A DNA stretch of 22,611 nt from a virus, in the IMG/VR virus record IMGVR_UViG_3300029787_000363, positions 1 through 22,611 of that record; one strand, written 5' to 3'. The position numbers and the translations under genes were made by a program. Shown piece after piece: positions 102 to 16,730 of this stretch (its first letter is position 1; each line of letters begins with the position of its first letter). The notes under the pieces were generated by a model. It did no database searches. It saw only the letters and a program-made list of their open reading frames with translations, and was not told where the DNA came from.

Positions 102-137
102 AATCACTCTCCTTTATATTAAATAGGGATTATATAC

Positions 138-166: not shown

Positions 167-216
167 GCAAATAAATTATTTTTATTTTGTGGACAAAAAA
201 ATACTAGTGTGTTATG

Positions 217-712: not shown

Positions 713-746
713 ACACAATAGCCTCATTGATACGGGTGGGGAGTAG

Positions 747-965
747 TCATAATAATTTAATATCTCCCACGGACAAGAGTATTTCAAATCCAGATCTTGT
801 CAAATAGGAGAATGTCCCATCTGAATAAAATATATGATATGACTCCTCCCAATGAATTAGGGAGTGCTCATCTCCAGTGGATGTGGAGCCTATTTTATAA
901 ACATTAATCACGATGCCGACTTTACCATTATCGATAATTAATGTACCTTGCTTCACCTCCGTCAT
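747..965 (-). CDS. Small SH3-like barrel protein (paralogue B)
   Basis: This 72-aa protein begins MTEVKQGTLIIDNGKVGIVI. 'QGTLI' followed by 'KVGIVINVYKI' and later 'YHIFYSDGTF' matches the strand pattern of the other SH3/KOW-like small proteins here. The ATG at 965 lies inside the end of the protease gene (38-bp overlap) and has no clear Shine-Dalgarno sequence; translation may be coupled to the upstream gene. A GTG three codons later is the only nearby alternative and has no better signal. Function is unknown. The call of a real gene rests on the tight packing and the family pattern. Confidence 0.6.
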   Translation of the reverse strand: MTEVKQGTLIIDNGKVGIVINVYKIGSTSTGDEHSLIHWEESYHIFYSDGTFSYLTRSGFEILLSVGDIKLL

Positions 966-1623: not shown

Positions 1624-1653
1624 GATAGTCTCCCCAATACAATAACTAGTTAT

Positions 1654-1678
1654 AAAAAAAGGCCACGTTCCCGTGGCC
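1654..1678 (-). terminator. Intrinsic terminator T1
   Basis: On the minus strand, GGCCACG pairs with CGTGGCC around a GGAA (GNRA-type) tetraloop, followed by seven T. It lies 13 bp downstream of the HExxH gene and closes the unit that begins at promoter P2. Confidence 0.9.
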
Positions 1679-1690
1679 CTCGTTTATTAC

Positions 1691-2164
1691 TCAGTTTTGC
1701 CTATCATCAACAAAAAATCCATATACTTTTTTTTTAGCCTCCGCATCATATAATAATAATGCATGCATCATCTGCTCTCTAAATTTTCTTTCATTTACTT
1801 GGAGGCCAAGATTGGTTGTAATTTTGAGACCTTCGCACCATGCTAAAGTTTCTAATAACACAACATCTTTGGGTTCAACCTTGTTAGCATAAAGAAAAGC
1901 GTGCCCCAGCTCATGTATCAAAGCATAATACTGCTCCTCAAGAGCGAGATCATTTCCAATTTCGATATCTCCAATAAGCTCGGGACTAACTGGGTCATTA
2001 ATATCTGCCCCAAAAGAACACTCTTCACTTTCATAGACAAAATCAACTAGAACATAGAGCTCATCATAAGCGAAATCTTTAAGCTTCTGGATCGCTTTTG
2101 AGATGTAGTCCTTTGTCAATATATTCTTTGAGGTCTGTGTATCCCCCGATGATATCAAAACCAT
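1691..2164 (-). CDS. HExxH zinc-metallopeptidase-like protein
   Basis: This is a 157-aa protein with a zincin signature: HELGH at residues 84-88 in 'YALIHELGHAF', with Glu105 ('LLETLAW') placed as a likely third zinc ligand 17 residues later. This resembles the short zincin core of the M78/ImmA type, but no helix-turn-helix is present and I cannot name the family. It could be a true protease or a structural remnant. The chosen ATG at 2164 has GGAGGG directly upstream (short spacing) and gives an 86-bp overlap with the glutaredoxin gene. An internal TTG near residue 16 has no ribosome site. It is the last gene before terminator T1. Confidence 0.7.
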   Translation of the reverse strand: MVLISSGDTQTSKNILTKDYISKAIQKLKDFAYDELYVLVDFVYESEECSFGADINDPVSPELIGDIEIGNDLALEEQYYALIHELGHAFLYANKVEPKDVVLLETLAWCEGLKITTNLGLQVNERKFREQMMHALLLYDAEAKKKVYGFFVDDRQN

Positions 2165-2354
2165 GGCCCTCCGTGTGTACTTTTAAGACAATTGGAACAG
2201 TTTCCATACCGTAATTAGTTTTGTGTGCCTCTAAAAGGTCAGGAGAATTTTCAATCCACGACGCAACGAATGGTAATTTTTCTTGTAATAATAGAGAGTT
2301 AGCCCGCTGACAGAAGCCACAAGAGGCAAACCCAATAATTTGATAATAGTACAC
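2079..2354 (-). CDS. Glutaredoxin-like thiol oxidoreductase
   Basis: This 91-aa thioredoxin-fold protein has the redox motif Cys12-Gly-Phe-Cys15 in 'GFASCGFCQRANSLL', the cis-proline region 'ETVPIV' and the 'IGGYTDLKEYI' glutathione-binding/terminal-helix region, which is the order expected of a glutaredoxin. CGFC replaces the common CPYC. Glutaredoxins reduce disulfides using glutathione and are classic electron donors to ribonucleotide reductase. A class II reductase gene lies at the other end of the window, so that role is possible but unproven. The start is GTG at 2354 with AGAGG 5 nt upstream, one base after the stop of the preceding gene. Confidence 0.85.
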   Translation of the reverse strand: MYYYQIIGFASCGFCQRANSLLLQEKLPFVASWIENSPDLLEAHKTNYGMETVPIVLKVHTEGHGFDIIGGYTDLKEYIDKGLHLKSDPEA

Positions 2355-2355
2355 T

Positions 2356-2634
2356 TTAACCTCTTAAGATTTGCTTTTGGGTGCTAAGCTTTTCTTGAAT
2401 TTTTTTAGGGTCACCCATAATCATTAGGACTCTAGATTGTTGACTTCCATCATATACAATCATTTTTGAGACCGAGAACTGCTCATGGACACCGGCCTTA
2501 AGCAAGCCCTCTTTAAGCTTATGGTACGCCAAGTTATCTTCAGTAACTGATACAACATGTTGTGGGTTCACATATACTCTGCTGATCGTCGGAGAGCCTT
2601 CGACCATCTCCACCTTTGTTAGTTCAACCAACAT
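2356..2634 (-). CDS. Unknown small beta-rich protein (FlbD-like layout)
   Basis: This is a 92-aa protein starting MLVELTKVEMVEGSPTISRV. A longer frame begins with an ATG at 2661, but AAAGGAG sits 7-8 nt before the ATG at 2634, which I take as the true start. The strand layout 'VYVNPQHVVSVTE' ... 'SKMIVYDGSQQSRVLMIMGDPKKIQEKL' resembles small FlbD-type or conserved phage proteins in which a short beta-sheet is followed by a 'GDPxxIxEKL' helix. No enzyme motif is visible and I would not assign a function. It overlaps the preceding small gene by 11 bp and is followed after 1 bp by the glutaredoxin gene. Confidence 0.7.
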   Translation of the reverse strand: MLVELTKVEMVEGSPTISRVYVNPQHVVSVTEDNLAYHKLKEGLLKAGVHEQFSVSKMIVYDGSQQSRVLMIMGDPKKIQEKLSTQKQILRG

Positions 2635-2863
2635 CAGCCATCTCCTTTGCAAAAGATACATCCCTAGACTTTACTAAAAAATACTCGTTTTTTATAAATA
2701 CTTTCAACAATTGGCCAGCTTTTTGAGTCGTAAGAACACAACCGATGTGAGGTTGCTTTGTAACCAATTTGGGATAAAGTAGGCTATTATGCAATGATTC
2801 TTCGTTAAAGAGCCATGTGCTTTGTGGAATCCTTATCAGATCCCCTTCTTTATAGCAATTCAT
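2624..2863 (-). CDS. Small SH3-like barrel protein (paralogue C)
   Basis: The protein is 79 aa starting MNCYKEGDLIRIPQSTWLFN. The ATG at 2863 has AGGAAG 8 nt upstream and lies one base after the stop of the preceding gene; a longer frame back to 2917 has no supporting signal. 'EGDLIRI' ... 'HIGCVLTTQKAGQLLKVFI' ... 'EYFLVKSRDV' repeats the G-D-L-(V/I) and (I)-G-(x)-(V/I)-(L/I) pattern of the other SH3/KOW-like proteins in this window. Function is unknown. Confidence 0.7.
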   Translation of the reverse strand: MNCYKEGDLIRIPQSTWLFNEESLHNSLLYPKLVTKQPHIGCVLTTQKAGQLLKVFIKNEYFLVKSRDVSFAKEMADVG

Positions 2864-2864
2864 T

Positions 2865-3194
2865 TTATTCTTCCTGTGGTGGAGTAGGCGCTGGAACCTG
2901 TTGTGCGGGAACCGCATTAGGCGGACCCTGTGGTGTTTCCTTGGCTTGATGATATCCGCTGAGGATAGCGATAGATTCGCTTAGTCTGGTGTCTAACGTC
3001 GCAAGGTTACGACGAACCTTATCTATTTTTTCTGCTGCGATTACTACATGAGGCTCAGGTTGCCGAAGTATTTCGCCTATCTCATTACACAAATGATCAC
3101 AAAAAGATAGCTGCGCTGCTTCTTCTTCAATCAATTCTGCGATATGTTCCGGAACTTCGTCGAGTTCCACGGAATACGATATTTTAACTCTCAC
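2865..3194 (-). CDS. Unknown 109-aa protein with Pro-rich tail
   Basis: The start is GTG at 3194 with GGAGG 5 nt upstream; the overlapping ATG at 3196 is followed directly by a stop. The first 80 residues are a beta-strand ('MRVKISYSVELDEVP') followed by amphipathic helices rich in Glu/Ile/Leu that could form a coiled coil. The last ~25 residues are Pro/Gln/Ala-rich and probably disordered. It is the first gene downstream of promoter P2 and has an 18-nt leader. I do not recognise a family and assign no function. Confidence 0.75.
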   Translation of the reverse strand: MRVKISYSVELDEVPEHIAELIEEEAAQLSFCDHLCNEIGEILRQPEPHVVIAAEKIDKVRRNLATLDTRLSESIAILSGYHQAKETPQGPPNAVPAQQVPAPTPPQEE

Positions 3195-3218
3195 ATTTAC
3201 CTCCAGAGTTTATATTAT

Positions 3219-3247
3219 AATATAACACACTTTAATTATTCTGTCAA
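3219..3247 (-). promoter_or_regulatory. Promoter P2 (sigma70-type, extended -10)
   Basis: TTGACA at 3247-3242, 17-bp spacer ending in TGT, TATATT at 3224-3219. The -35 box contains the TGA stop of the preceding gene. The predicted leader is about 18 nt, just enough for the GGAGG site of the gene at 3194. Confidence 0.8.
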
Positions 3248-3504
3248 ATTGTTATTAACATTTGATAAATAGTAGCAGTCACCAGAACGATTACAGAACT
3301 TATAACTGCCCATGTTACTTTAGAATAGGTCTCTTTCCATTGTTCGAGAGCACGAAGCCTAGCGTATAAACCAGAGTCGGGATTATAAACTGCTTCTTTT
3401 ATTTGTCTTATATCGGCGTTCATCTCATCTTGCTTCTCGGACATTCGTTCGAGAGTGCTTTTAAGTTCTTGAATAAGTGTTACTAGTTCTGCTTGTGTGC
3501 TCAT
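3244..3504 (-). CDS. Small coiled-coil protein with C-terminal membrane anchor
   Basis: This is an 86-aa protein. Residues ~1-60 are a charged helix with heptad-like spacing ('LIQELKSTLERMSEKQDEM'). Residues ~64-86 ('WAVISSVIVLVTATIYQMLI') form one hydrophobic segment ending at the C-terminus, so it is likely tail-anchored in the inner membrane. The layout is like XhlA-type phage proteins, which accompany holins and endolysins; that is a resemblance only. An amidase endolysin lies upstream in the same run of genes. The ATG at 3504 has a distant AAGGA (about 11 nt), and the gene follows GroEL after 7 bp. Its stop codon lies inside the P2 -35 box. Confidence 0.75.
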   Translation of the reverse strand: MSTQAELVTLIQELKSTLERMSEKQDEMNADIRQIKEAVYNPDSGLYARLRALEQWKETYSKVTWAVISSVIVLVTATIYQMLITI

Positions 3505-3511
3505 GCTTTAA

Positions 3512-5086
3512 TTAGTCCTTCGTTCCTACAATCGCATAGTTCATTGTTAACAATGTTGACGCGGCGGACACGGCATTTTGTAGGGCACACCGAGTTACTT
3601 TGCAGGGATCAGTAATCCCAGCGTCAAGCATATCAGCGTACTCCCTTGTGAGGAAGTTGTACCCTTGATTTTGTGTCTTGTTAATTACTCCGTTAACAAT
3701 TAAATCCGCTGATTCACCTGAATTTGCACAAAGTTGTCGCAGTGGTTCCTGTACTGCGTCAAGGATAATACGAGCACCCAGTGCTTGCTCTTCATTATCA
3801 GTAGAGACATGCAAACCAATAGATGCGCGTATAAGACCAACACCACCACCGGGGAGTATGCCCTCTTCCAGTGCTGAACGGACGGCTTCTAGAGCATCAT
3901 CAATACGATGCTTCTTTTCAATCATTTCCACTTCTGTCGCCGCGCCCACTTTAATAACAGCAATACCACTAGCAAGTCTAGTAATGCGTTCCTGTAGCCT
4001 TTCACACGCTTGTAAATCTTCCGTTTCTTTAATTTCGTTTTTAATTGATTCAATTCTTGTTTCAATAGTTTCCTCATCACCTAATCCTCCTACCACTGTT
4101 GTTGAATACTTTCCAACCGTGGCGCTTTTAGATCTACCAAAATGCTTTAATTGGACATTTTTTAATAGCAAGCCGTCTTCCCTAGTAAGGAACGTCGCAC
4201 CCACCGAGGCAGCCAAATCTCTTAGAATAGAGCGTCTTTCTTCACCATAACGGGGTGATTTGACGGCACATACCTTCATAGTTCCACGGACTGCGTTAGC
4301 AATCAGGGCCGCAAGTGCTTGTCCTTCAACCTCATTCGCTACAACCAACAAAGGTCTTTGATCTTTTGCGGCAAGCTCAAGTGCTGGGTAGATTTGTTCT
4401 ACCGTATCAATCTGTTCATCAGTAACTAGGATTAAGGGGTCATGATATTCTGCTGTGTTCTGTCTCTCGTTCGTAATAAACTTAGCAGATAAATAACCTT
4501 GGTCCATTCTAAAACCTTCTATAAGATCCAATGATGTATTGATTGATCTCGCTTCCTCAACAAGAACAGAGCCATCTTTACCCGCTGAATCCACAGCGGT
4601 TGCAATGAGGGTTCCGATTCCAGTGTCGTTGTTGGCTGAGATGGTTGCAATGTGTTGAATGTCCTGTTGTGATTGAACGGGTCGTGCAATTTCCTTAAGG
4701 TTTTCAACAATCATTTCTGTGGCTTTGTCCATCCCTCTCTTGATTTCAGTAGGTGAAGCACCGGCAACGATATATTTCTGTGCTCGGTTCAAGATTCCAC
4801 GGGTTAAGATTGTAGCAGTCGTTGTACCATCGCCAGCGTTTGTTGCCGATTGCTTTGCGGCTTGTTTAACGATTTGTGCTCCCATGTTTTCAAAAGGATC
4901 TTCAAAGGTGATATGCTCTGCGACAGTTACGCCGTCCTTGGTTACCATCGGGATGTCTTCTCCCTGATACATAATACCCACGGTTCTCCCTCTGGGTCCC
5001 AATGTTGATCCTACATTGTCTGCGAGTTTATTAACTCCATTTAGTACTTTATTTGTTAGTTCTTGACCGTCATTATAATGCTTCAC
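3512..5086 (-). CDS. groEL: Phage-encoded GroEL (60-kDa chaperonin)
   Basis: The product is 524 aa and the full chaperonin fold is present. Equatorial motifs are 'STLGPRGR' (28-34), 'TKDGVTVA' (49-56) and 'GDGTTTATIL' (85-94). The ATPase aspartates are kept: Asp51, Asp86 and Asp397, equal to E. coli 52, 87 and 398. The intermediate/C-terminal motifs 'EEGILPGGGVGL' and 'DAGITDPCKVTR' are also kept. Chaperonins form ring complexes that enclose and refold proteins with a GroES lid. The apical domain aligns with E. coli without gaps but has changes in the substrate/GroES groove: Lys202 (E. coli Tyr203), Tyr233 (Leu234) and Ala263 (Val264). The Gly-Gly-Met tail is absent. The start is GTG at 5086 with GGAGG 4 nt upstream. 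A candidate co-chaperonin gene lies 16.5 kb away at 21587-21865, not adjacent as in bacteria. Confidence 0.98.
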   Translation of the reverse strand: MKHYNDGQELTNKVLNGVNKLADNVGSTLGPRGRTVGIMYQGEDIPMVTKDGVTVAEHITFEDPFENMGAQIVKQAAKQSATNAGDGTTTATILTRGILNRAQKYIVAGASPTEIKRGMDKATEMIVENLKEIARPVQSQQDIQHIATISANNDTGIGTLIATAVDSAGKDGSVLVEEARSINTSLDLIEGFRMDQGYLSAKFITNERQNTAEYHDPLILVTDEQIDTVEQIYPALELAAKDQRPLLVVANEVEGQALAALIANAVRGTMKVCAVKSPRYGEERRSILRDLAASVGATFLTREDGLLLKNVQLKHFGRSKSATVGKYSTTVVGGLGDEETIETRIESIKNEIKETEDLQACERLQERITRLASGIAVIKVGAATEVEMIEKKHRIDDALEAVRSALEEGILPGGGVGLIRASIGLHVSTDNEEQALGARIILDAVQEPLRQLCANSGESADLIVNGVINKTQNQGYNFLTREYADMLDAGITDPCKVTRCALQNAVSAASTLLTMNYAIVGTKD

Positions 5087-5096
5087 TATTCCTCCA

Positions 5097-5324
5097 TTAT
5101 TCTATTTCGTTTACACTACTTGTTATTTCGTCGTCCCAGTCCAATCGTAATCGGATCATGGGGTTGAAGGTTGCCGTAACTCGTTCCTGAGTTAGAATAC
5201 CCTCGGGTTTTACCAATTCTCCATTAATATCAACAGACTCAAAGTCGATCTCTGTTCTCTGTTGATAAACAACGGTTGGTGATGGCTCATCTGCGAGAGC
5301 CACTGATAAAAGTAAAAAAATCAT
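5097..5324 (-). CDS. Small exported protein of unknown function
   Basis: The product is 75 aa starting MIFLLLSVALADEPSPTVVY. Residues 1-11 form a short signal peptide with a plausible cleavage after Ala-Leu-Ala (residues 9-11), leaving a 64-aa mature protein rich in beta-strand residues ('RTEIDFESVDINGELVKPEG'). The frame is open further upstream to 5402, but GGGGAG lies 7 nt before the ATG at 5324, and that ATG overlaps the stop of the cysteine-rich gene as TAATG, so this start is preferred. There is no lipobox Cys. It sits between the cysteine-rich gene and GroEL. No family recognised; role in the envelope is unknown. Confidence 0.75.
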   Translation of the reverse strand: MIFLLLSVALADEPSPTVVYQQRTEIDFESVDINGELVKPEGILTQERVTATFNPMIRLRLDWDDEITSSVNEIE

Positions 5325-5467
5325 TATTGATCTCCCCAACAACACCAGCAGTCGTCGCTTCCGCATCTCTTGCAAGTTATTTTTATTGTTCCCCAGCCGC
5401 AATCACACGGATCACAACCACAAGCGGGGCATGCTTTTTTAGATAATCCCTTTAATATAATCACCAT
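5324..5467 (-). CDS. Cysteine-rich 47-aa microprotein (probable metal binder)
   Basis: A very short gene: ATG at 5467 with AGGAG three bases upstream, stop TAA sharing a base with the next start (TAATG). The 47-aa product has ten cysteines, at residues 13, 16, 18, 21, 23, 32, 35, 40, 42 and 43, plus three Trp, after a short hydrophobic N-terminus (MVIILKGL). The arrangement C-x2-C-x-C-x2-C-x-C ... C-x2-C-x4-C-x-C-C looks like two metal-binding clusters, comparable in density to metallothioneins or a compact double zinc knuckle. I know of no named phage family with this spacing. It is co-directional with and translationally coupled to the exported protein and GroEL. Function is unknown; metal or redox handling is the simplest guess. 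Confidence 0.75.
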   Translation of the reverse strand: MVIILKGLSKKACPACGCDPCDCGWGTIKITCKRCGSDDCWCCWGDQ

Positions 5468-5473
5468 TTTCTC

Positions 5474-6436
5474 CTAGTCAATGTTTTTTTCTACAGATTT
5501 TGCTAATTTGTCGGCATCAGCCGCTGCTCGGGCACCGACTGTTTTGTTTTCAAAGTCTGTGAGATAAATATTCAGATTATTAGTTAGGTCAGCAAAGGCA
5601 TCAAAGATGTCTGTGATTCTTTGCCCAAGGCGAGCAACATATTTGTTTGCGATACTTTTCAGTTGTTCTCTCGATCCAAAATCCAAACGAGCCAGCAACA
5701 TATCCTCTGGTAATCTGGGAGTGTAAATCTTACCATCTGCAAATTGAACGATATCAAAGTCGCCTTCGATGCCTTGCGACTTATCTCCAATCGTAAATTG
5801 ATAAAAATCAACACCCAATACGTCTTTTCCTTCTCTTTCTTTAAGGGCAACAATATAGGTGATCGGCTTCTGGAATCTCTCTATGCCATTTCTAAGATTA
5901 TCAACAGAGCCTTTCACATATTTTGGGCCTTTAAAGAAAAACTTCAAAGACAAAGGAGTATCGCCATCAGAATTTAAGAGGTCCTCAATAGGTAGATTAC
6001 CACCCGCGAGTTCAGTCACTTGTGTCCCTTTTATGAGAACAGCCAATAAAGCTTCAAACATAAAGCCGCCAGTCTGGGCATTAAAGTCTTCAATCACACC
6101 GGCGAGCGAATCAAGAAAGACAAGATTACCGATAATGGTTTCAACCTTTGACTCGTTTATACAACTTTCATCGCAATCTTTGATAAAGTTTTGGACAGAG
6201 CTTATCTTTTCTTGAAGTGTGTCACCCTGTATATTGCTGAAGAATCTTTCGATGATCTGTCTATCGTCAGATGATGGGTCACCCCACTTTTCAGACAGAG
6301 CAAACTTTGGAAGTTTTAAGGTTTTGGATTTCTCACCTTGATCTTGAGTCACGGGCATTTGCCTTTCAACTACGAGGCCAAGATGTTGGGCACAAGCTTC
6401 TGTGATCATCTGATCTAATAATTTAAATTTATCCAT
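5474..6436 (-). CDS. Unknown 320-aa protein with PD-(D/E)xK-like motifs
   Basis: Residues 122-180 carry 'GGFMFEALLAVLIKGTQV', then Asp152, 'PLSLK' (161-165) and 'VKGS' (174-177). The order Glu128 ... Gly-Thr-Gln ... Asp152 ... Ser-Leu-Lys165 ... Lys-Gly-Ser is the same as in the 255-aa protein at 10331-11098 and is compatible with a restriction-endonuclease-like core. The rest (1-120 and 185-320) is mostly helical and unassigned, with an Ala-rich C-terminus ('ARAAADADKLAKSVEK'). It could equally be a structural protein. The ATG at 6436 overlaps the amidase stop as TAATG and has GAGGA 9 nt upstream, so the two are translationally coupled. Confidence 0.7.
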   Translation of the reverse strand: MDKFKLLDQMITEACAQHLGLVVERQMPVTQDQGEKSKTLKLPKFALSEKWGDPSSDDRQIIERFFSNIQGDTLQEKISSVQNFIKDCDESCINESKVETIIGNLVFLDSLAGVIEDFNAQTGGFMFEALLAVLIKGTQVTELAGGNLPIEDLLNSDGDTPLSLKFFFKGPKYVKGSVDNLRNGIERFQKPITYIVALKEREGKDVLGVDFYQFTIGDKSQGIEGDFDIVQFADGKIYTPRLPEDMLLARLDFGSREQLKSIANKYVARLGQRITDIFDAFADLTNNLNIYLTDFENKTVGARAAADADKLAKSVEKNID

Positions 6437-7329
6437 TACTTAATTTCCTCAAGAAGTTTTTTAAGATCCAGACCGGCACAATCAATCTTTCGATTAGTGA
6501 GATGGTAATGAGAAATAAACCCATTAAACCTACCATTGACGGCTGCTTTACAAATACCGGTGGATGTTTTGTTGTTTGGTGATAATGGACACTCCAGAGG
6601 AATGTCGTAGGCTGTGTGGATCGCTTTCATCAATGCTTGGAGTGCTTGTAATTGGACATCATAGAAGCCCAAGAAAGGGTCAAGATAACTACCATGAACC
6701 TTCTTTCTTTCCCAAAGAGGTCGTTCACCATAGCCATTCTTCACATACCAGCTTTGATGCTTTGGGTAATACGCATTTGCTATCTCAACTCCAATAGAGT
6801 TGTTGTTCCATTTAGAAGATCCAGCATGCCATGCAATGTGATTGCAGTCCATAAATTGATAGATAGTGCCGTCGTTGTCTATGCCGAAATGAACTGAGAT
6901 TCCTCGGTTCTTGAGTACCCTGAAGCAACTCTCCGAGGACAAACAAACATCCCAATGACAGACAAAGTTGCCGACCTCTCTCTTCTCGCGCACTGTGCGG
7001 TAACCGCTAGTTAGTCGAAGGCCACCCGACTCTATTGGAAGAACAACATGGGGCCATTCGATATCAACATAGTTGTTGTTACAAAGTATAAACGACTCTT
7101 GTCTTGTCTTGAGTTCACGAGGGGCGTGATCCATAAGATCGGCTTCGCGAACAGTCCAGATCCGGCGATAAGTTGTTGGCCCGACTAAACCATCAGCAGT
7201 CAATTTATATTCCTTTTGAAATTCTTTTACATTTTTAAGCAAATCCTCGTCAAAATGGGTGGACCCAAACCATTCAGGGGTCCACCCGAGTTTTGCAGAG
7301 GAAGATTCGTTATAAAAGATTTTATCCAT
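6436..7329 (-). CDS. Endolysin: PG-binding domain plus N-acetylmuramoyl-L-alanine amidase
   Basis: The 297-aa modular endolysin cuts the bond between muramic acid and the stem peptide. Residues ~26-58 are a PG_binding_1-type wall-binding repeat ('VKEFQKEYKLTADGLVGPTT'). Residues ~95-290 are an Amidase_2/PGRP domain with the expected zinc ligands His125 ('FVCHWD'), His274 ('ISHYHLT') and Cys284 ('KIDCAG'), together with 'AWHAGSS', 'NNNSIGVEIANAYY' and Lys281. No signal peptide is visible, so export would need a holin; none is obvious, though small membrane proteins lie at 8042-8443 and 3244-3504. The ATG at 7329 has AAGGAT 6 nt upstream. It sits inside a ClpP-GroEL gene run rather than in a dedicated lysis cassette. 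Confidence 0.92.
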   Translation of the reverse strand: MDKIFYNESSSAKLGWTPEWFGSTHFDEDLLKNVKEFQKEYKLTADGLVGPTTYRRIWTVREADLMDHAPRELKTRQESFILCNNNYVDIEWPHVVLPIESGGLRLTSGYRTVREKREVGNFVCHWDVCLSSESCFRVLKNRGISVHFGIDNDGTIYQFMDCNHIAWHAGSSKWNNNSIGVEIANAYYPKHQSWYVKNGYGERPLWERKKVHGSYLDPFLGFYDVQLQALQALMKAIHTAYDIPLECPLSPNNKTSTGICKAAVNGRFNGFISHYHLTNRKIDCAGLDLKKLLEEIK

Positions 7330-7350
7330 TTTTAATCCTTTTTACTATAA

Positions 7351-8013
7351 TTAGATCAAAATATCAGCAATTCCATGTTCAATTGCTTCTTCCGCAGATA
7401 AATAAACATTTATCTTTCGATCCATAAGCTTTTTCAAAGCACGCTTGGTAAAATTGGAGTTTTCAACAATCGCCTCAATGTAAGCCTCTTGGAGGTTCTG
7501 AATCTCATCGAGTTCATTCACAAGATTATGAACCGATCCAATGTTCCCAGCGGAAACAGCATGGATCATTACACGACAATTTCTTCCAATCTTTCGCTTC
7601 CCTTTGGTCCCTGCTGCTAACAGAAGGACACCAGCAGACATGACCTTTCCAAGCCCACAAGTTACGACATCGCAACGAGTTTTAGCGAAGTTCATTACAT
7701 CATAAATTGAGAACATATCGTCGGCTGAACCGCCGTATGTTGAAACATAAAAAGTAATGTCTTCTGCTTTTTCTGGTTCTTCTCCCTCAAGAGGAGTCAA
7801 AGGTTCCGACATCGTGATTAAATGGTAACAAAGTTCCCCTGCTTTCTCTTCTTCAACAGAGCCAAAGAGGCCAATGATGCGAGGATCTTTATCGCCACCG
7901 CCGAGCAGTTGACCTAAATTGATTTTAAGTTTTGCGGTCTCTTCCCCTTCTTCTTCAGACTTTTCGTCTGTGTCTTCTTTGATTTTGTTTCTTCTTTTTC
8001 CAATAAATGTCAT
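7351..8013 (-). CDS. clpP: ClpP-like serine protease (S14)
   Basis: This 220-aa protein has an acidic, low-complexity N-terminus (residues 12-28) before a ClpP fold: 'ITFYVSTYGGSADDM' (oxyanion strand), catalytic Ser126 in 'GKVMSAGVLLLAAG', His151 in 'VMIHAVSAG', and the C-terminal 'YLSAEEAIEHGIAD' helix. The position matching the catalytic Asp of E. coli ClpP (Asp171 in 'RDRFLSA') is Asn202 here ('KINVYLSA'). ClpP peptidases form barrels fed by AAA+ unfoldases; phage versions may instead process virion proteins. Start ATG 8013 with GGAGG 5 nt upstream. It is driven by promoter P3 with a 14-nt leader and leads a run containing the endolysin and GroEL. No unfoldase or capsid gene is in the window. 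Confidence 0.93.
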   Translation of the reverse strand: MTFIGKRRNKIKEDTDEKSEEEGEETAKLKINLGQLLGGGDKDPRIIGLFGSVEEEKAGELCYHLITMSEPLTPLEGEEPEKAEDITFYVSTYGGSADDMFSIYDVMNFAKTRCDVVTCGLGKVMSAGVLLLAAGTKGKRKIGRNCRVMIHAVSAGNIGSVHNLVNELDEIQNLQEAYIEAIVENSNFTKRALKKLMDRKINVYLSAEEAIEHGIADILI

Positions 8014-8033
8014 AATACCTCCATGACTTATAT

Positions 8034-8062
8034 AATATAACTTACTTTAGTAACATTGTCAA
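8034..8062 (-). promoter_or_regulatory. Promoter P3 (sigma70-type)
   Basis: TTGACA at 8062-8057, 17-bp spacer, TATATT at 8039-8034. The -35 box lies inside the coding end of the upstream membrane-protein gene (it encodes Leu-Thr). The predicted leader for clpP is about 14 nt. Confidence 0.8.
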
Positions 8063-8443
8063 GTTATTTCTATCTTTAATTATCTTTGTTATATGTTTCT
8101 TTGCTGTTTTCCAATTATGAAAGAGAGCCAAATGCTTTAGGCGCTCTGGGATAATGTGTATGAGATTACCGATAATGAGATCAAAGACGGTATCGTTTTC
8201 AATCTTGTCCATCTTGCGTTGTATCTCAATCTCTTTTTCATCAACTCCGCAGTCCGACAGATACTTGTATGTTGTCTCTTGCACTTGGATGGTTTTTTCA
8301 TACACGGTTCCTATGACTAATAAAGCATCTTCAATACTCCCCTTAACCATGAGAATCAATGTCCCAGTCCCCAAAACATAAGTGTATGTTGCATGAACAA
8401 GGATTCCAACTACAAAGAACAGAATATATAAAATCAATTCCAT
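8042..8443 (-). CDS. Small membrane protein of unknown function
   Basis: The product is 133 aa. Residues 1-35 are strongly hydrophobic ('MELILYILFFVVGILVHATY' then 'TLILMVKG') and give one long or two short membrane segments. The remaining ~95 residues are a charged helical domain ('EKEIEIQRKMDKIENDTVFD'), probably cytoplasmic, ending in Lys-rich helices. The ATG at 8443 has GGAGG 4 nt upstream. It is the only gene between promoter P4 and promoter P3. No family is recognised. Its place upstream of ClpP and the endolysin allows a lysis or membrane role, but nothing in the sequence proves it. Confidence 0.75.
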   Translation of the reverse strand: MELILYILFFVVGILVHATYTYVLGTGTLILMVKGSIEDALLVIGTVYEKTIQVQETTYKYLSDCGVDEKEIEIQRKMDKIENDTVFDLIIGNLIHIIPERLKHLALFHNWKTAKKHITKIIKDRNNLTMLLK

Positions 8444-8455
8444 TTGTCCTCCAAT

Positions 8456-8482
8456 AAAAAAAGACGGGGAATGCCCGTCTTT
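8456..8482 (-). terminator. Intrinsic terminator T2
   Basis: On the minus strand AAAGACGGG pairs with CCCGTCTTT around CATTC, running into seven T (8462-8456). It follows the acidic protein gene and overlaps the predicted start site of promoter P4. Confidence 0.9.
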
Positions 8483-8484
8483 AT

Positions 8485-8512
8485 ATTATAACACGATGAA
8501 GTTATTTGTCAA
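8485..8512 (-). promoter_or_regulatory. Promoter P4 (sigma70-type, extended -10) abutting terminator T2
   Basis: TTGACA at 8512-8507, a 16-bp spacer ending in TGT, and a perfect TATAAT at 8490-8485. The predicted start at about 8478 falls inside the 5' arm of the T2 hairpin. Leader about 35 nt to the membrane-protein gene. Confidence 0.8.
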
Positions 8513-8515
8513 GTG

Positions 8516-9211
8516 TTATTTGCTAACTTTTTTGGCTGCTTCGTTAATTCGCTTAGCAACACGTTTAGCAACTTCCTGAACAACTTCTTCTTCATTTATG
8601 TATGCTTTGTCGCCTTTCTTTTCACCACGGCCTTTGCCGCTGTGCTTAAGTTCGTCGTCTTTCTTAGTTGTGTAATCTTTTTCGCCTTTGTGGGTTGCAG
8701 ACTCATCACCTTTCATTGCGCCATGCTTTTCTTGAAGTTCAATTTCAGCATCGACATCAAGGTCTAATTCTTCAGGCTCGTCCTCTGCTTTATCAAGGTC
8801 ACCTTCGGCTCCCATTAGCTTACCCAAAAGGTCACTGAGTGTCTTATGAGCATCGTCTAGTTGGGACATTGCGGATTCGACTTCATCTTGGGATAGCATT
8901 ACATCTACATCAGCTGCTTCTTCGGCTTCTTCACCTTCGTCACCTCCTTCGGCGTCCACTTCAAGTTCAGCTTCTTCATGTGCTCCCTCGGCGTGCATTT
9001 CTTCTTTGTGCATACCTTCTTCTTTGTTATCATGCATACCCTCAGCGTGCATATCTTCTTCTTTTTTATCGTGCATGCCCTCTTCCATTGCATCTTCTTC
9101 TTTCTCTTCTTTATACATTTCGTTGATGAAGTTGGAAGAAACATTTGCATTTAAGTTGGCAAGTCCCATAAATTTGCGTACTTGGGCTTCGCTTAAAAGT
9201 TTTTTAGACAT
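8516..9211 (-). CDS. Highly acidic Met-His-repeat protein, possible scaffold/core protein
   Basis: This 231-aa protein starts MSKKLLSEAQVRKFMGLANL. The frame reaches back to 9247, but AGGAG lies 9 nt before the ATG at 9211. After a conserved-looking N-terminal helix (1-32) come a Met-His/Glu repeat (45-78), very acidic stretches ('EVDAEGGDEGEEAEEAADVD'), a helical middle (about 100-130), a Lys/Asp/Gly-rich segment and a C-terminal coiled-coil ('EEVVQEVAKRVAKRINEAAK'). Such acidic, low-complexity proteins with helical ends occur as prohead core or scaffold components in T4-like phages, but no specific homology can be claimed. It ends its transcription unit at terminator T2. Confidence 0.75.
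   Translation of the reverse strand: MSKKLLSEAQVRKFMGLANLNANVSSNFINEMYKEEKEEDAMEEGMHDKKEEDMHAEGMHDNKEEGMHKEEMHAEGAHEEAELEVDAEGGDEGEEAEEAADVDVMLSQDEVESAMSQLDDAHKTLSDLLGKLMGAEGDLDKAEDEPEELDLDVDAEIELQEKHGAMKGDESATHKGEKDYTTKKDDELKHSGKGRGEKKGDKAYINEEEVVQEVAKRVAKRINEAAKKVSK
8978..9079 (-). repeat. In-frame Met-His repeat coding segment
   Basis: Residues 45-78 of the acidic protein contain five Met-His pairs (46-47, 54-55, 59-60, 67-68, 72-73) and one Ala-His (77-78). They are set in repeated units such as GMHD(K/N)KEE and MHAEG(M/A)H, with the matching TGCAT-rich DNA repeat. Confidence 0.8.
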
Positions 9212-9265
9212 GATATAAAATCTCCTAGTGTTGTTATTAATTATCATTCAAAACAAGAAAAGGCA

Positions 9266-9601
9266 TTAAAGGTCGGGATATTCTTCTGCTATCATATCAA
9301 AAATGCCTTCAAGTTCGTCCTCTTTGATACCAAATTTTTCCAAAAGATGTTCGCCTTCCTCTATATCCTCGACAACACGGCCTCGTTTTTTCTTGTTTTG
9401 GATGCCATGTTTCTCCTTATAATTAGCAAGATAATTAGTAATTTGCCCATCATTTTCTAGATACCCTGTGATCATAGCACGGAAGAAATCTGATTGGCTA
9501 ATACCATCATGTTGTAACCTTATTCGAAGTTGAGCATGGCGAACATCTGTGTCCGTAAAAACTACTCGTTTTTCTTTACTCTTCTGATCCGCCATAGCCA
9601 T
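9266..9601 (-). CDS. Ribbon-helix-helix-like DNA-binding protein (putative)
   Basis: The product is 111 aa. Residues ~12-50 ('KRVVFTDTDVRHAQLRIRLQ' followed by 'HDGISQSDFFRAMITGYLEN') have a strand, then two helices with the hydrophobic spacing of Arc/MetJ-type ribbon-helix-helix domains. The C-terminal part is Lys-rich then acidic. A DNA-binding regulator is the best guess, without a named match. Two in-frame ATGs, 9601 and 9595, are equally possible; neither has a strong ribosome site. Both lie inside the end of the zinc-ribbon gene (overlap about 20-26 bp), so translation may be coupled. The gap down to 9211 holds nothing else. Confidence 0.65.
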   Translation of the reverse strand: MAMADQKSKEKRVVFTDTDVRHAQLRIRLQHDGISQSDFFRAMITGYLENDGQITNYLANYKEKHGIQNKKKRGRVVEDIEEGEHLLEKFGIKEDELEGIFDMIAEEYPDL

Positions 9602-9890
9602 TCTCTTTTTCGTAAGCTTGTACTACTGCTCTAGCCTTTTCCCAGCATTCAGGACAGTAAAGCCTCACTTGATTGATATCGTTGCGCACAACAACAGACC
9701 ATGTGGCCACTTGCATCCTGTTCTCTTTGTTAAAGGTCTTTGTACAGGCGCTGCATTCGTTTGGTATTTTTTCAAAAAGAGCAACTTTCTCGGGGATATC
9801 CCTTATTTGTTCTTCTGTAGGTTGCTGCTTCTTAGATGCACCTTTTTCGTTTTTTGATTTTTTGTTTTTTCTTCTTTGTTCTCTATTCAT
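9576..9890 (-). CDS. Small zinc-ribbon protein
   Basis: The product is 104 aa. A very basic N-terminus (MNREQRRKNKKSKNEKG) is followed by two Cys pairs, Cys46-x2-Cys49 ('NECSACTKTF') and Cys79-x2-Cys82 ('LYCPECW'), 29 residues apart. That is a classic four-cysteine zinc-ribbon with beta-strands between ('VATWSVVVRN'). The basic tail suggests nucleic-acid contact. No family name can be given. The ATG at 9890 has AGGAG 7 nt upstream. It lies between dUTPase and the ribbon-helix-helix-like gene, all in the P5 unit. Confidence 0.8.
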   Translation of the reverse strand: MNREQRRKNKKSKNEKGASKKQQPTEEQIRDIPEKVALFEKIPNECSACTKTFNKENRMQVATWSVVVRNDINQVRLYCPECWEKARAVVQAYEKENGYGGSEE

Positions 9891-9902
9891 GTGTAACTCC
9901 TG

Positions 9903-10322
9903 TTATGCTCCTGTGGAACCAAAGCCACCTTCACCACGATCGGTGTCCGAAAGTTCTTCAACTTCCTCAAACTCGACTTCGGGATAGGGCATAATAATTA
10001 GTTGTGCAATACGATCTCCGACATTATAACAATTAAGATTTGTGCTACAAGAGAACTTCAGCATAATTTCTCCTCGGTACCCAGAGTCAATAACACCGAC
10101 TGCATTTCGTAAAGAGCAAGAAGTTTTTGAAATCGATGATCTTGGATACAATAACCCAACATGACCTTCGGGTATTTCGATGGCCAGACCTGTGTAATGA
10201 ACAGAGTTGGAGTTGTTATCGCGTTCGTGCCGAACCGAATAAAGATCCATTCCGGCGTCACCGGCTTTTGAGTAAGATGGGATTACCGCATCTTCGTGTA
10301 GTTTTTTAATTTTGACCTTCAT
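9903..10322 (-). CDS. dut: dUTP diphosphatase (trimeric dUTPase)
   Basis: The 139-aa enzyme hydrolyses dUTP to dUMP and pyrophosphate, keeping uracil out of DNA and feeding thymidylate synthesis. All five family motifs are in order: 'AGDAGMDLYS' (20-29), 'PRSSISK' (60-66), 'NAVGVIDSGYRGEI' (73-86, catalytic Asp79), 'GDRIAQLII' (102-110) and the C-terminal P-loop-like 'DRGEGGFGSTG' (128-138). Length is typical for the family. The ATG at 10322 has AGGAG 7 nt upstream. With ThyX (20140-20844) it forms a dUTP to dTMP route, though the two are in different transcription units. Confidence 0.97.
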   Translation of the reverse strand: MKVKIKKLHEDAVIPSYSKAGDAGMDLYSVRHERDNNSNSVHYTGLAIEIPEGHVGLLYPRSSISKTSCSLRNAVGVIDSGYRGEIMLKFSCSTNLNCYNVGDRIAQLIIMPYPEVEFEEVEELSDTDRGEGGFGSTGA

Positions 10323-10330
10323 GTGTTCTC

Positions 10331-11098
10331 CTAAAAAGTTTGTACTTTGTTGATCGCTTTCAATCCATCAATGACTTTATCGACTCTATCTTGTTGTATT
10401 TTGATAACAGGGGATGATGTTGTATTGGCCTCACTGTCTCCCATCAAAGCTCCGACACCGTTGTTAAGAACTGCTCTGATTCTAAGATTGTGATCTACAG
10501 TGTTGCCTTTACTATCTTCAAATACAACCTTCGCAGAGGTTTTACCTCTACCCCATTGCAATTTTGGAGTATGATGTTCAATTGAATGCTTAAGCGGCAT
10601 ATCATCAAAGTTAAATTTGTAGTCTGTTTTGTTTTCGCGGTCTGATATAACCACAACCATACCTTTGTTCTTTGCGTTAACATGGTCATTCAAAATTGAA
10701 CTGATTTCCTCGGATGAAAGACCTCTCATAGCTTCATTAAGGACGGTAGTTACATTCTCGCGAACAGCATCTATCGAACGATCAGTATCTATTTGTTTGA
10801 TTCTCTGCTTAACGCCTTGTAGAGAAGGGCACTCCGTAAATGCCCTAGAGCTGTTAATATGGTCATAAGAACCTTTCTTTAGGCTCTTCTTGTTTTTGAT
10901 TGAGATTGGTATCTCAGTTTCATTTGCGTCTTTTATGACCGCATCAGCTTTATTTTGCGTGCCTCCCTTTAAGATAACCTCAAAGTCATCGCTTAAGTTT
11001 GGGAAAAGTTTTTGTCCAAGTTTTTCTAATTTCTTAGCTACTCGTACTTCGTTCTTAATGCCGTTCTTGTGTGATGAACCGTTTGTTTTAAAACCCAT
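10331..11098 (-). CDS. PD-(D/E)xK nuclease-like protein next to a DNA methyltransferase
   Basis: The product is 255 aa from the ATG at 11098, which has GGAGG 5 nt upstream; the ATG at 11110 has none. Residues 10-84 show 'HKNGIKNEVRVAKKL' with Glu17, 'ILKGGTQNKADAV' with Asp52, 'IPISIKNKK' with Lys68, and 'KKGSYDHINSS'. This is a plausible E...D...xSxK restriction-endonuclease-like core. The C-terminus has 'LRIRAVLNNGVGALMG' (205-220) and 'SSPVIKIQQDRVDKVI' (229-243). It sits directly downstream of the DPPF methyltransferase, in the same direction but with its own promoter P5. That position makes a restriction-type nuclease possible, but the catalytic reading is an inference, and the same motif set occurs at 5474-6436. 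Confidence 0.7.
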   Translation of the reverse strand: MGFKTNGSSHKNGIKNEVRVAKKLEKLGQKLFPNLSDDFEVILKGGTQNKADAVIKDANETEIPISIKNKKSLKKGSYDHINSSRAFTECPSLQGVKQRIKQIDTDRSIDAVRENVTTVLNEAMRGLSSEEISSILNDHVNAKNKGMVVVISDRENKTDYKFNFDDMPLKHSIEHHTPKLQWGRGKTSAKVVFEDSKGNTVDHNLRIRAVLNNGVGALMGDSEANTTSSPVIKIQQDRVDKVIDGLKAINKVQTF

Positions 11099-11125
11099 AA
11101 TATCCTCCATGATTATTATACATAT

Positions 11126-11154
11126 AATATAACTTGATCACTACTAGCTGTCAA
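11126..11154 (-). promoter_or_regulatory. Promoter P5 (sigma70-type)
   Basis: TTGACA at 11154-11149, 17-bp spacer, TATATT at 11131-11126. The -35 box lies in the last codons of the upstream methyltransferase. Predicted leader about 21 nt to the nuclease-like gene. Confidence 0.8.
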
Positions 11155-12130
11155 GTCTTTTCTTACAAATTTTTATAGCATCCGGATTTATATCGAACAA
11201 TATATAATTTCTCTTTAGATTTTTTGATACAAATCCAGTCGTTCCGCCACCTGCTACGGGATCAAGAACGGTGTCCCCCTCGTCAGTGGACATCTTAATG
11301 ATGCGTTCCAAAAGGGATTGCGGCTTCTGAGTTGGGTACACTCTTTCTTCAGAACCTTGAGCAATTGAATGAAGGTCATCCCAAAAATCAGTGCATGCCT
11401 TGCCACTTGACTCGTGCGCATAAATTTTCTTATAGGGTTTGGCGCCTTTCTTCTTTGGAAAGTATATTCTATCTAGATCAACAAGTTTTTGTAATTGTTC
11501 TCGATCAAGACGCCAGCCATATTGAGGTTTATACACCACGCCATTGTGAACAAACGAAAAGTAACGCCTGTTTGCAACAGGTTTTTGCTTGTCCTTTTTC
11601 TTGTCTGGTGCTTGGGTTTTTGTGTATGTTATATGACCAAGTGCATAGTTGCCCCTATCATCTTTATTTTTATAAGAGTTTTTAGCGTAATAAGCATCTA
11701 ACGGCTGGTATACCATGTTAAACTTCGGCTTATCTACTTTGGAGCACCAATAAATTATATCTGTGCAAGCACCCAACTTGCTTTTGGTATTGTTTTTAGA
11801 CCGAGAGCGCAACCAAAAAATGGGCTGAATACGCTTAAAGTATTTTGCAAGAATCATATGCGGTAATAACATCTGATCGGCTGAGATGTGAAAGAAGAGC
11901 GAACCATCTTTAGCCAAGGCTCGATGAGATTCTTTTACCATAGGCTCAATCAAATCAATGTATTCCTGATCGGAATGATAGATGTCGCTAAAGCCAATGC
12001 TTTGATCGCTGTTAGTCAATCGATAATTACGACTAGAATTGAATGGTGGGTCAATGTACACACTATTAATTGATTGGTCTTCTACTGACTTCAATAATTC
12101 GCGTGAGTCACCTAGTTTTATTTTGTTCAT
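11144..12130 (-). CDS. Site-specific DNA methyltransferase, DPPF type (beta-class, N4-C or N6-A)
   Basis: This 328-aa SAM-dependent methyltransferase acts on an amino group of cytosine or adenine. Motif IV is at the N-terminus (27-30, 'VYIDPPFNSS') and the SAM-binding motif I is near the C-terminus ('LDPVAGGGTTG', ~289-299), preceded by 'YPTQKPQSLLERII'. This IV-TRD-X-I order is the beta class. The middle (~110-250) is the likely target-recognition region. A frame extends to 12196, but GGGAG lies 6-7 nt before the ATG at 12130, 11 bp after the polymerase stop. It is probably co-transcribed with dnaE from P6. The target sequence cannot be read from the protein. It may protect phage DNA or regulate it. 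Confidence 0.92.
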   Translation of the reverse strand: MNKIKLGDSRELLKSVEDQSINSVYIDPPFNSSRNYRLTNSDQSIGFSDIYHSDQEYIDLIEPMVKESHRALAKDGSLFFHISADQMLLPHMILAKYFKRIQPIFWLRSRSKNNTKSKLGACTDIIYWCSKVDKPKFNMVYQPLDAYYAKNSYKNKDDRGNYALGHITYTKTQAPDKKKDKQKPVANRRYFSFVHNGVVYKPQYGWRLDREQLQKLVDLDRIYFPKKKGAKPYKKIYAHESSGKACTDFWDDLHSIAQGSEERVYPTQKPQSLLERIIKMSTDEGDTVLDPVAGGGTTGFVSKNLKRNYILFDINPDAIKICKKRLDS

Positions 12131-12141
12131 TTGTTCTCCCA

Positions 12142-15100
12142 TTATCCCAACATGACCCAGCAGTTGTTCAAGGCCCCTCGGGTTGAAAAGCCCCAAGTCT
12201 CATTGTACTGTGGTTTAATCATGTAAGGTCGATTAATATACAGAATATCCCGCTCAGGCTTTACAGACCAGCAACGAAGTCTAGTCTGAACTGAGTTGTT
12301 ATCAATCACATCAACAACATAGAATAGTTTTCCATTCTTGGTTTTCTTCTTGGTTACTTCTCGCACGATACACCAACACATTTGTAATTCAGGATCATAC
12401 TCTGAGATTGGTGGTACGCCATACTGATCTAGCTTCCGCTGGATGCCGTCATCAATAACCAGACTCACTGGGAAGATACCCGTCAGATTGGCCAAGAAGT
12501 CAATCCTCTCATCAGTTGAGAAGTTGCCCTCCGGACGATACTTAACGATGTTCTCTTCGAAGTTCTTAAGCTTCCTTGGACGGTCAACACAGGTCGCGGT
12601 CCAGAAGTGTTTGTCTCCAGTGAACCGATCATCCTGAAGGTCTTTCATCGCACCAGCACGACACAGAGCATCCAGTGCTTTCTTGTTCAGCTTTGAGTAA
12701 ACGATGTTATCATTGAACAGAAAGTCCTCGATGGTATTGAATGGCCGGTGAGCAAGAATCTGATCAATTGCTTTGTCGCCCAGACCTTTAATGGTCGTGA
12801 GCGGAGCAATCAAAGTCTGCTCGTCAAGTATCTCCCAAGCCCGATGAGAATGGTTTACATTCAGAGGCTGGATGTTATACCCGTGTTGTTTAGCCAAATT
12901 TATGGCTTTCTCTTTACGGGTTTCAGGCTCTTTATCCAAAAAGGATGCAACCCACTCTACATTGTAATAGTTACAAAGCCATGCGCATTGATAAGAAATT
13001 ATTGAATAACTTACCGCATGCGACTTATTAAAGCCGTAACCTGAGAAATACTCAAAGGTTTGCCAAAGATCGTTTCCTTGAGAAACCGCGAGTCCGTTGT
13101 CTTCGCAACCTTGCATAAACTTTTTATATATCGCATCTTTAACTTCATGTCCTTTACCTGTTCCTTTCTTTGTTAATACCTTCCGAAGAAGGTTGCCCTC
13201 ATCCAAGGTGAGATTACGGCCTAGTTTGTGAGCCAGAAGAGCAATCTGTTCTTGAAAGATCAAGAAGCCATGTGTCTCTTCGGTTACTTCACGAACCAAG
13301 TCGTTCATATACCATACCGATTCAGGGTCATTGTGAGCCGCCACATACTGACGGTCCACACCGGCGCCAAGAGGTCCGGGTCTATAAATAGATGTTATAG
13401 CAGAAATATCAATTATCGATGTGGGTTTTACTTGGCTTGCGAATGTTTGCGCTCCATTCTCAGTGAACTGGAAGATACCAATCCACTTCTTATCGTGAAA
13501 GATGTTCTTGTAAACCTCTTGGTCATCAAGGTCAATCACATCAGGATGGAGATTCTCCATGTAGAACTTTCGAATCTGCTGGAATGTTGGATTCTCAATA
13601 CCATGATGGCGACGAAGAATCTTTTCAACACAATCCTCAATCATTCGAAGAGTAGACAAACCAAGGATGTCGAACTTAATGAAGCCCATAGGCTCAAGCT
13701 GACGAACGTTTTGCCCCTCAGACCACGGAGTCTGGCGGACACCCTTGGATGAGATGAGAGGCATGTATTGGTTGAGAGACTCACCAATCACAACGCCACC
13801 GGCATGACGAGAGCAAGACTTTACCTGACCTGCGAGATCACGACAATGCTTCTCAATCTTTGGATACTTACGGAAGAATCCCTGAAGTGAATCAGAGAAC
13901 TCCATAACCTCACTGAGAGTCGGAGTATAGATGCCTGCCTTGATACCATGACGGGCCTTGGCTAATGGTGTTGCTTCACCAATCATCTTTGATGTAACAG
14001 GATTGACCTCAGAGAATGGGATCTCATACAGACGAGAGATGTCTTTGATGAGAGACTTCAACTGAAGCGTGTTCCAGTTTGAGATAGGTACAACAACATC
14101 GTTGCCCCACTCTTCGATAAGCTTCTCCTTGAGAACCATTGGATCAGATACATCATAGTCAATGTCCGGATAGTCCTTCGCATCCGAGCGAAGGAAGCGA
14201 GAGAACAGAAGACCATACTGAATGGGGTCAACTTGTGTGATGCCGAGAGCATAAGCCACAAGGGAACCAGCAGCAGAACCACGGCCCGGACCTGCAAGTT
14301 GAACCTCGTTGGTCTTATCTACAATCGCTTTCATGGTCAGGAAATACTTCGCAAAGCCACGACCATTGATTACATCAAGTTCTTCATTTAGCCTTTGACT
14401 ATACTTCTCAAACATCCCGCCATTAGGATCTAAACCACGAGATTCAAAAACACCTACAAGACCTTCGAAAGAAAGCTGACCAAGGTAGGTTGTAGCATCT
14501 GTCCCAGCAGGAACGATAAAATCAGGCAACCGCACAGTGTTGTCAGGGGAAAATCGTTCAATGCGATTGAAAGCGATGTCGTGTGTTTCTGTAATCGAAG
14601 CCAATATTTTGTCATCGTCGTAAGTAACTCCACATAATTCTGAGTAGTGCTTATAGGACTGCCACATCTGGTTACCATTCTTTGGATACAGTTCATATCC
14701 AATTTCTTCAACGGAAACAGGCAGTTCCATTTCGGCCCACTCTGGCTTCTTTCCAAGCCAACCTAGTCTTTTATATAGTTCTCTAGACTGCCAAGCGGTA
14801 GGATTAGGATAGTGACTGTCGCAGGTAGAGATCAGTTTTACACCCATTTCATCCGCAACTTGGATGATGTATTTGTTCAATTCGTGCTGCTCTGGAATGT
14901 TGTTCCATTGTAACTCAGCGTACCAACGATCCCCAAGAACGTCTTGGAATCGCTGTGTAATATCTCGCATACAATCAAGAACAGCATCGTCACCTTCGTC
15001 ACGATTCTCCCAGTAGCAACCAGCATAGACACCACCGAGACAAGCAGAGGCAGCAATGATACCTTCTCCGTATTGCTCAAGCAAGTTAAAGTCAATGCGA

Positions 15101-15582
15101 GGATAACGATAGAAGTTGTCGCCAGTGTAACTCTTGGAAATCATTTTGAAAAGATTGTTGAGACCAGTCTGATTCTGAGCCAGAAGTACCAAGTGACGGC
15201 GACGATTAATGTCATGCTTTGATACACTCTTTGAAGCGCCTTCATTCTCAATCGTGGTTCCTGATTGGCCTTTATCAATCTGCTTCGCAAGCTTCTTATC
15301 TTTTCTGTATTCTTCAAGTTTCTCTTTCCACTCATCAACGGATGGAATGAAGTAAGCCTCAACACCATAAATTGGTTTGAAGTCTTTACCTTGTGCTTGC
15401 ATCTTTTTTGCGTGCATAACTTGATAGGCCAAGCCGTTCATGTTCCCATGATCGGTCAAGGCCAATGCTTTTGATCCGTTGGAGTAAGCAAACTCCATGT
15501 GGTCTTCTGGATAGCCGAAGCCATCAAATGGTGAGCCCACTCCGCAGTGAGCATGTAATCCTACAAATGGTATTCTTTCCAT
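12142..15582 (-). CDS. dnaE: DNA polymerase III alpha-type (C-family replicative polymerase)
   Basis: The product is 1146 aa, near the full bacterial DnaE length. PHP domain: 'GLHAHCGVGSPFDGFG' (His10, His12, Asp20), 'LTDHG' (Asp44, His45), 'GVEAYF' (Glu75), His130, Cys181 and 'TCDSHY' (Asp255, His257), so the metal-binding set looks complete. Palm: 'AGPGRGSAAGSL' (430-441), 'YPDIDYD' with catalytic Asp473/Asp475, and 'IKFDILGLSTL' with Asp638. Fingers: 'GFLIFQEQIALLAHKLG' and 'GYGFNKSHAVSYSI'. A helix-hairpin-helix is at ~918-935 ('TIKGLGDKAIDQILA') and an OB-fold from ~1063. No separate proofreading exonuclease, clamp or loader is in the window. The ATG at 15582 has AAGGAGGT upstream and a 15-nt leader from P6. 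It presumably replicates the phage genome. Confidence 0.97.
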   Translation of the reverse strand: MERIPFVGLHAHCGVGSPFDGFGYPEDHMEFAYSNGSKALALTDHGNMNGLAYQVMHAKKMQAQGKDFKPIYGVEAYFIPSVDEWKEKLEEYRKDKKLAKQIDKGQSGTTIENEGASKSVSKHDINRRRHLVLLAQNQTGLNNLFKMISKSYTGDNFYRYPRIDFNLLEQYGEGIIAASACLGGVYAGCYWENRDEGDDAVLDCMRDITQRFQDVLGDRWYAELQWNNIPEQHELNKYIIQVADEMGVKLISTCDSHYPNPTAWQSRELYKRLGWLGKKPEWAEMELPVSVEEIGYELYPKNGNQMWQSYKHYSELCGVTYDDDKILASITETHDIAFNRIERFSPDNTVRLPDFIVPAGTDATTYLGQLSFEGLVGVFESRGLDPNGGMFEKYSQRLNEELDVINGRGFAKYFLTMKAIVDKTNEVQLAGPGRGSAAGSLVAYALGITQVDPIQYGLLFSRFLRSDAKDYPDIDYDVSDPMVLKEKLIEEWGNDVVVPISNWNTLQLKSLIKDISRLYEIPFSEVNPVTSKMIGEATPLAKARHGIKAGIYTPTLSEVMEFSDSLQGFFRKYPKIEKHCRDLAGQVKSCSRHAGGVVIGESLNQYMPLISSKGVRQTPWSEGQNVRQLEPMGFIKFDILGLSTLRMIEDCVEKILRRHHGIENPTFQQIRKFYMENLHPDVIDLDDQEVYKNIFHDKKWIGIFQFTENGAQTFASQVKPTSIIDISAITSIYRPGPLGAGVDRQYVAAHNDPESVWYMNDLVREVTEETHGFLIFQEQIALLAHKLGRNLTLDEGNLLRKVLTKKGTGKGHEVKDAIYKKFMQGCEDNGLAVSQGNDLWQTFEYFSGYGFNKSHAVSYSIISYQCAWLCNYYNVEWVASFLDKEPETRKEKAINLAKQHGYNIQPLNVNHSHRAWEILDEQTLIAPLTTIKGLGDKAIDQILAHRPFNTIEDFLFNDNIVYSKLNKKALDALCRAGAMKDLQDDRFTGDKHFWTATCVDRPRKLKNFEENIVKYRPEGNFSTDERIDFLANLTGIFPVSLVIDDGIQRKLDQYGVPPISEYDPELQMCWCIVREVTKKKTKNGKLFYVVDVIDNNSVQTRLRCWSVKPERDILYINRPYMIKPQYNETWGFSTRGALNNCWVMLG

Positions 15583-15603
15583 TCTACCTCCTTAAGTGTT
15601 TGT

Positions 15604-15632
15604 AATGTATCATGTTTTGTTGTGTCTGTCAA
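15604..15632 (-). promoter_or_regulatory. Promoter P6 (sigma70-type)
   Basis: TTGACA at 15632-15627, 17-bp spacer ending in TGA, TACATT at 15609-15604. Predicted leader about 15 nt to the polymerase gene. Confidence 0.78.
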
Positions 15633-15635
15633 GAT

Positions 15636-16673: not shown

Positions 16674-16695
16674 ACAACCTCCATAATTGTATAAT

Positions 16696-16724: not shown

Positions 16725-16730
16725 GTGGTT

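Follow-up and report, generated by a model that had tools for sequence, protein, structure and literature searches.

Promoter and terminator in one intergenic gap

When a strong promoter appears to start its RNA inside the hairpin of the preceding terminator, which RNA is stopped there and which is let through? We addressed this question at one gene boundary in a virus record of 22,611 bases (the whole stretch analysed, hereafter the window), whose long ORFs lie nearly all on the minus strand and which encodes DnaE, ClpP, amidase and GroEL proteins, among others; putative dUTPase and ThyX genes were recognised from reading their translations. All window features given below are on the minus strand. 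The boundary is a gap of 72 bases between the stop (8516) of a gene for a 243-aa acidic protein (8516-9247; stop codon 8518-8516, 3 nt ahead of the -35 box) and the ATG (8443) of a gene for a 133-aa protein with a hydrophobic N terminus (8042-8443), the first of the downstream unit. A ClpP-like protease gene (7351-8013; Pfam CLP_protease, E 3.4e-31) served as synteny anchor for the homologous boundary in relatives. Neither the 243-aa nor the 133-aa protein matched a family in Pfam, PHROGs or NCBIfam. The 243-aa protein carries repeated EGMHDKKEE-like motifs, and its same-position homologs have the N terminus (KKLLSEAQVRKFMGLA-like) and the acidic make-up in common.

Three elements share the gap: a sigma70-type promoter with perfect hexamers, a hairpin and T-run resembling a terminator, and a ribosome-binding site (RBS). 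The -35 box TTGACA (8512-8507) and the -10 box TATAAT (8490-8485) score 12/12 with a spacer of 16 nt, inside the 16-18 nt spacing of sigma70-type promoters; this was the sole 12/12 site within the scanned positions 1-20000, and the exact hexamer pair occurs only once in the whole window. Two nucleotides below the -10 box begins the hairpin AAAGACGGG-CATTC-CCCGTCTTT (8482-8460; 5' arm 8482-8474, loop 8473-8469, 3' arm 8468-8460), with 9 bp, 5 of them G-C. It runs into seven T (8462-8456), the first three of which double as pairing partners in the stem base. The predicted start, A8478, lies 7 nt below the -10 box and four bases into the 5' arm, and RNA begun there would drop AAAG and keep a remnant of 5 bp (ACGGG/CCCGT). 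Re-reading of the hexamers and the hairpin confirmed the promoter-terminator overlap that an earlier note on this DNA had described, with the -10 box ending at 8485, the arm at 8482-8474 and, given a start at 8478, the loss of the arm's first four bases. Sequestration of the RBS (GGAGG, 8452-8448) was ruled out, as the RBS lies below both the hairpin and the T-run; in RNA started at the window's promoter the freed 3' arm can pair weakly with GGAGGAC, a pairing that locus L002 does not keep.

A second strong promoter (TTGACA-N17-TATATT, 8062-8034) lies just ahead of clpP, where it overlaps the final part of the 133-aa gene, and has no hairpin; similar sites were found in L002-L010. The sole other strong minus-strand terminator-like hairpin of the window, GAGGGCCACG-GGAA-CGTGGCCTTT with a T-run (1681-1658), had no overlapping promoter, and the window matched no structured-RNA family of Rfam at gathering score.

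We consider it probable that the site marks an operon boundary where a terminator and a promoter overlap compactly, stopping upstream RNA and letting the promoter's own RNA escape. Polymerase arriving from the upstream genes would copy the whole hairpin and the U-tract and terminate. Host sigma70-type polymerase at the strong promoter would start some 7 nt below the -10 box, partway into the 5' arm, so that the complete stop signal would be absent from the new RNA; unable to form the full terminator stem, this RNA would continue into the 133-aa protein and clpP genes.

Conservation across related phages

Viral contigs were scanned with ClpP and GroEL as anchors, which yielded 122 non-redundant regions upstream of clpP. 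Of these, 71 have a terminator-like hairpin close to a promoter scoring 10/12 or better: 63 in register A (the end of the -10 box placed -4 to +3 nt from where the stem begins), 7 with the -35 box in the hairpin, and one (L178) with the hairpin wholly downstream of the start. Register A was found in none of 1220 shuffled regions (first-order Markov, ten per real region), against 63/122 real ones. After adding weaker cases identified by eye and four loci with the module beside clpP, 79/122 regions were labelled register A. The promoter, the hairpin, the T-run, their fixed register and their joint conservation are thus plain to read in the sequences.

Among the 63 register-A loci the hexamers are conserved (-35 exact in 54, -10 exact in 46) and the spacer length varies (17 nt in 59, 16 nt in 4). 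The T-run is kept in relatives, and GGAG or GAGG follows the stem within 30 nt in 54/63. The phages carrying the overlap form a large, uncultured and mostly marine family. The cultured phages searched included no near DNA relative of the window, and their ClpP and GroEL were less than 60% identical to those of the window. Two MAG contigs carry a distant ClpP (L097 without the module). In L029, L031 and L032 the promoter-hairpin module stands directly ahead of clpP, and the small gene is seemingly missing.

Specificity to the boundary

Among strong promoters of the fetched loci (at least 11/12), a hairpin at the start was present in 60 of 79 at the boundary against 7 of 254 elsewhere, and four of these seven (L029, L031, L032, L152) represent this very boundary, next to clpP. 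Conversely, 51 of 65 strong terminators at the boundary had an overlapping promoter, against 0 of 24 elsewhere. Those two terminator totals, taken over all fetched phage loci, also show that strong intrinsic terminators are scarce off the boundary. The overlap is a habit of neither the promoters nor the terminators of these phages; being essentially absent elsewhere in them, it belongs to this boundary, which is special. The idea of a general 5' leader hairpin of this phage was discarded, since the other strong promoters mostly lack one.

Covariation of the stem

The stems vary widely in sequence and are still paired (GACGGG, GGAGAGG, GGGTGGG, GACCGCG, AACCACTGG and others). A gapped MAFFT alignment of the site misregistered the stems and was dropped, so a script counted pairs from the structure instead, with positions numbered from the predicted start. 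In both groups of loci, pairs covary on both sides of the predicted start. In particular, positions -1 and -2 were paired in 24/24 members of the window's group, with four pair types each, and 0/1000 partner shuffles reached the observed pairing; the stem finder requires pairing, which inflates the excess over shuffles, an inflation limited by the near-zero yield in shuffled regions, and the counts give every related sequence a row of its own and do not represent independent events.

Bases -1 and -2 are absent from the promoter's own RNA, which places the full stem under selection for RNA arriving from upstream. Since bases 5' of the start occur in read-through RNA alone, the compensatory changes among them argue for a real terminator of upstream transcription, and the site has the usual form of an intrinsic terminator: a G-C-containing stem directly before a U-tract, with the stem kept by compensatory change. 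The terminator role for upstream transcription is strongly supported by these comparisons, termination in vivo being what they predict. The earlier proposal that upstream RNA contains the full hairpin and would stop there is well supported by the same conservation, T-run and compensatory changes.

The same data bear on two other readings of the hairpin. It could be a DNA-level element, serving around the start as an operator or a cruciform without forming an RNA hairpin, as a perfect inverted repeat spanning the start would allow; we regard this as extremely unlikely, since the sequence varies freely while pairing persists, unlike in an operator, and the T-run occurs on the 3' side alone. Alternatively, the hairpin could be maintained because it protects the promoter's RNA at its 5' end, with termination incidental. 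Stems of 4 bp or more at the 5' end were indeed predicted in 54/63 register-A leaders against 82/254 leaders of other promoters, but this is no proof of protection, because a truncated hairpin leaves a stem anyway. The remnant is weak or nearly gone in some members (L119, L124, L129, L168), such hairpins are missing at the other strong promoters of these phages, and the conserved T-run and the covariation 5' of the start would be left unexplained, all of which makes protection very improbable as the reason for the hairpin. The earlier note had also suggested a small protective 5' stem: the stem itself is commonly predicted, and a protective role for it is possible.

Probable escape of the promoter's own transcript

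The overlap as proposed would let the promoter's own RNA pass only if enough of the stem were missing from it. Starts were assigned 7 nt below the -10 box or, failing a purine there, at the nearest purine at 8, 6 or 9 nt; the exact positions are thus those we infer from this rule. The predicted start fell inside the 5' arm in 63/63 register-A loci, and truncation removed 2 to 11 pairs (mean 6.7), bringing the mean hairpin energy from -15.4 to -5.7 kcal/mol. With a terminator score of the d'Aubenton-Carafa type, the full hairpins had a median of +34 and were positive in 63/63 loci, and the truncated ones had a median of -21 and were positive in 8/63. By these scores the truncated hairpins are predicted to lose activity, and escape of the own transcript is well supported across the family.

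In the window, escape is plausible and finely balanced, hinging on a difference of one nucleotide in the predicted start. The full hairpin scored +37 and a start at 8478 reduced this to -5, but with a start at 8479 or 8480 the GACGGG/CCCGTC core would be intact and the score would stay at +37. The limit of 8482 that had been set for a start compatible with escape was accordingly too lenient. With the residual 5-bp stem one nucleotide away from the U-tract, the promoter's own RNA may still be terminated in part.

These details could instead point to a leader attenuator, in which the truncated hairpin would end some of the promoter's own transcripts as an RNA of about 25 nt and set the level of the downstream genes. 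Such a reading would draw on the residual stem adjoining the run of seven T, on the retained score for starts at 8479 or 8480, on the 8/63 loci still positive after truncation, and on L178, the sole locus where the entire hairpin follows the start (some 14 nt downstream of the -10 box), whose own RNA would therefore contain it and which is a possible attenuator. In most loci, however, the truncated score is far below zero and the residual stem lies several nucleotides from the U-tract (most clearly in the AACCAC group), and the pairs 5' of the start are conserved though absent from the promoter's own RNA. We therefore hold attenuation to be unlikely. Against a general escape of the own RNA, only 2 bp are lost in L109, L161 and L162.

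Overall, the sparing of the own transcript appears likely: it is supported for the family by score and depends in the window on the exact start. The interpretation given in the earlier note is, as a whole, partly supported.

Other registers of the overlap

The promoter and the hairpin also meet in other registers. In six clear cases (L052, L053, L055, L057, L059, L133) the -10 box TATAAT lies in the hairpin loop and the start in the 3' arm, with a poor -35 match (3 of 6); the RNA of such a promoter would thus hold the 3' arm alone. L077 is ambiguous as a case of this kind. In L013-L015, L062, L070, L078 and L082 it is the -35 box that falls in the hairpin, and the spacer holds the T-run. As the start falls at or past the 3' arm in these side registers, the own RNA would again lack the full hairpin. 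In a ClpP tree, built by a quick method and with long branches and so a rough guide, several of the deep branches contained register A, and loci without the module grouped with the remaining registers. Upstream of clpP, L136, L141 and L150 have a long inverted repeat of the form CTACCCTATAG...CTATAGGGTAG, or a variant of it, that lacks a T-run; a -10-like TATACT, which is TATGCT in L150, stands within or next to the loop.

If the overlap works as proposed, selection has maintained a self-exempting terminator in a large and diverse family of uncultured phages. The roughly 95 natural designs would bear on how much stem can be missing before termination fails, on start-site choice and on whether overlap promotes polymerase reuse, and compact insulated promoter parts are a possible use.

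Comparison with known systems

A close likeness is the boundary of genes VIII and III of M13, which we take to be the gene VIII terminator with the weak gene III promoter. Its sequence reads TACAAT, 1 nt, AAAGGCTCC-TTTT-GGAGCCTTT, a T-run, GGAG and the ATG of gene III, so that the register and the order of elements are nearly alike. M13 differs in its weak -35 box (TCGAAA, 4 of 6) and in being an unrelated ssDNA phage with other genes.

In T4, late promoters lie inside hairpins that sequester the RBS (I-TevI and segB; RBS hairpins also occur in e and soc), and the late-promoter RNA is too short for the inhibitory hairpin that longer transcripts form (PMC2988022). The likeness is that a promoter is placed so that its own RNA cannot build the full inhibitory hairpin. 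The T4 hairpin, however, blocks translation, whereas that of the present family is a terminator with the RBS outside it.

At tufB-secE of Salmonella, a terminator is reported to overlap the promoter of the next operon, an arrangement on which expression and fitness depend (described in PMC7055797). In E. coli K-12, the hairpin visible at tufB precedes a TATAAT by about 80 nt.

Polymerase can stay on the DNA after intrinsic termination, diffuse and restart at nearby promoters (PMC6978380). The phage layout likewise puts a promoter at a termination site, which suggests a hand-off, a conjecture from layout: terminated polymerase would stay on the DNA and restart at the promoter 25-50 bp away. We give this a small chance of being right; if true, downstream output would follow upstream traffic without continuous RNA.

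The principle of the overlap is thus already known, with M13 VIII/III and the T4 late promoters as precedents. What appears new, within the searchable papers, is how deeply it is conserved and that its register changes at a single boundary.
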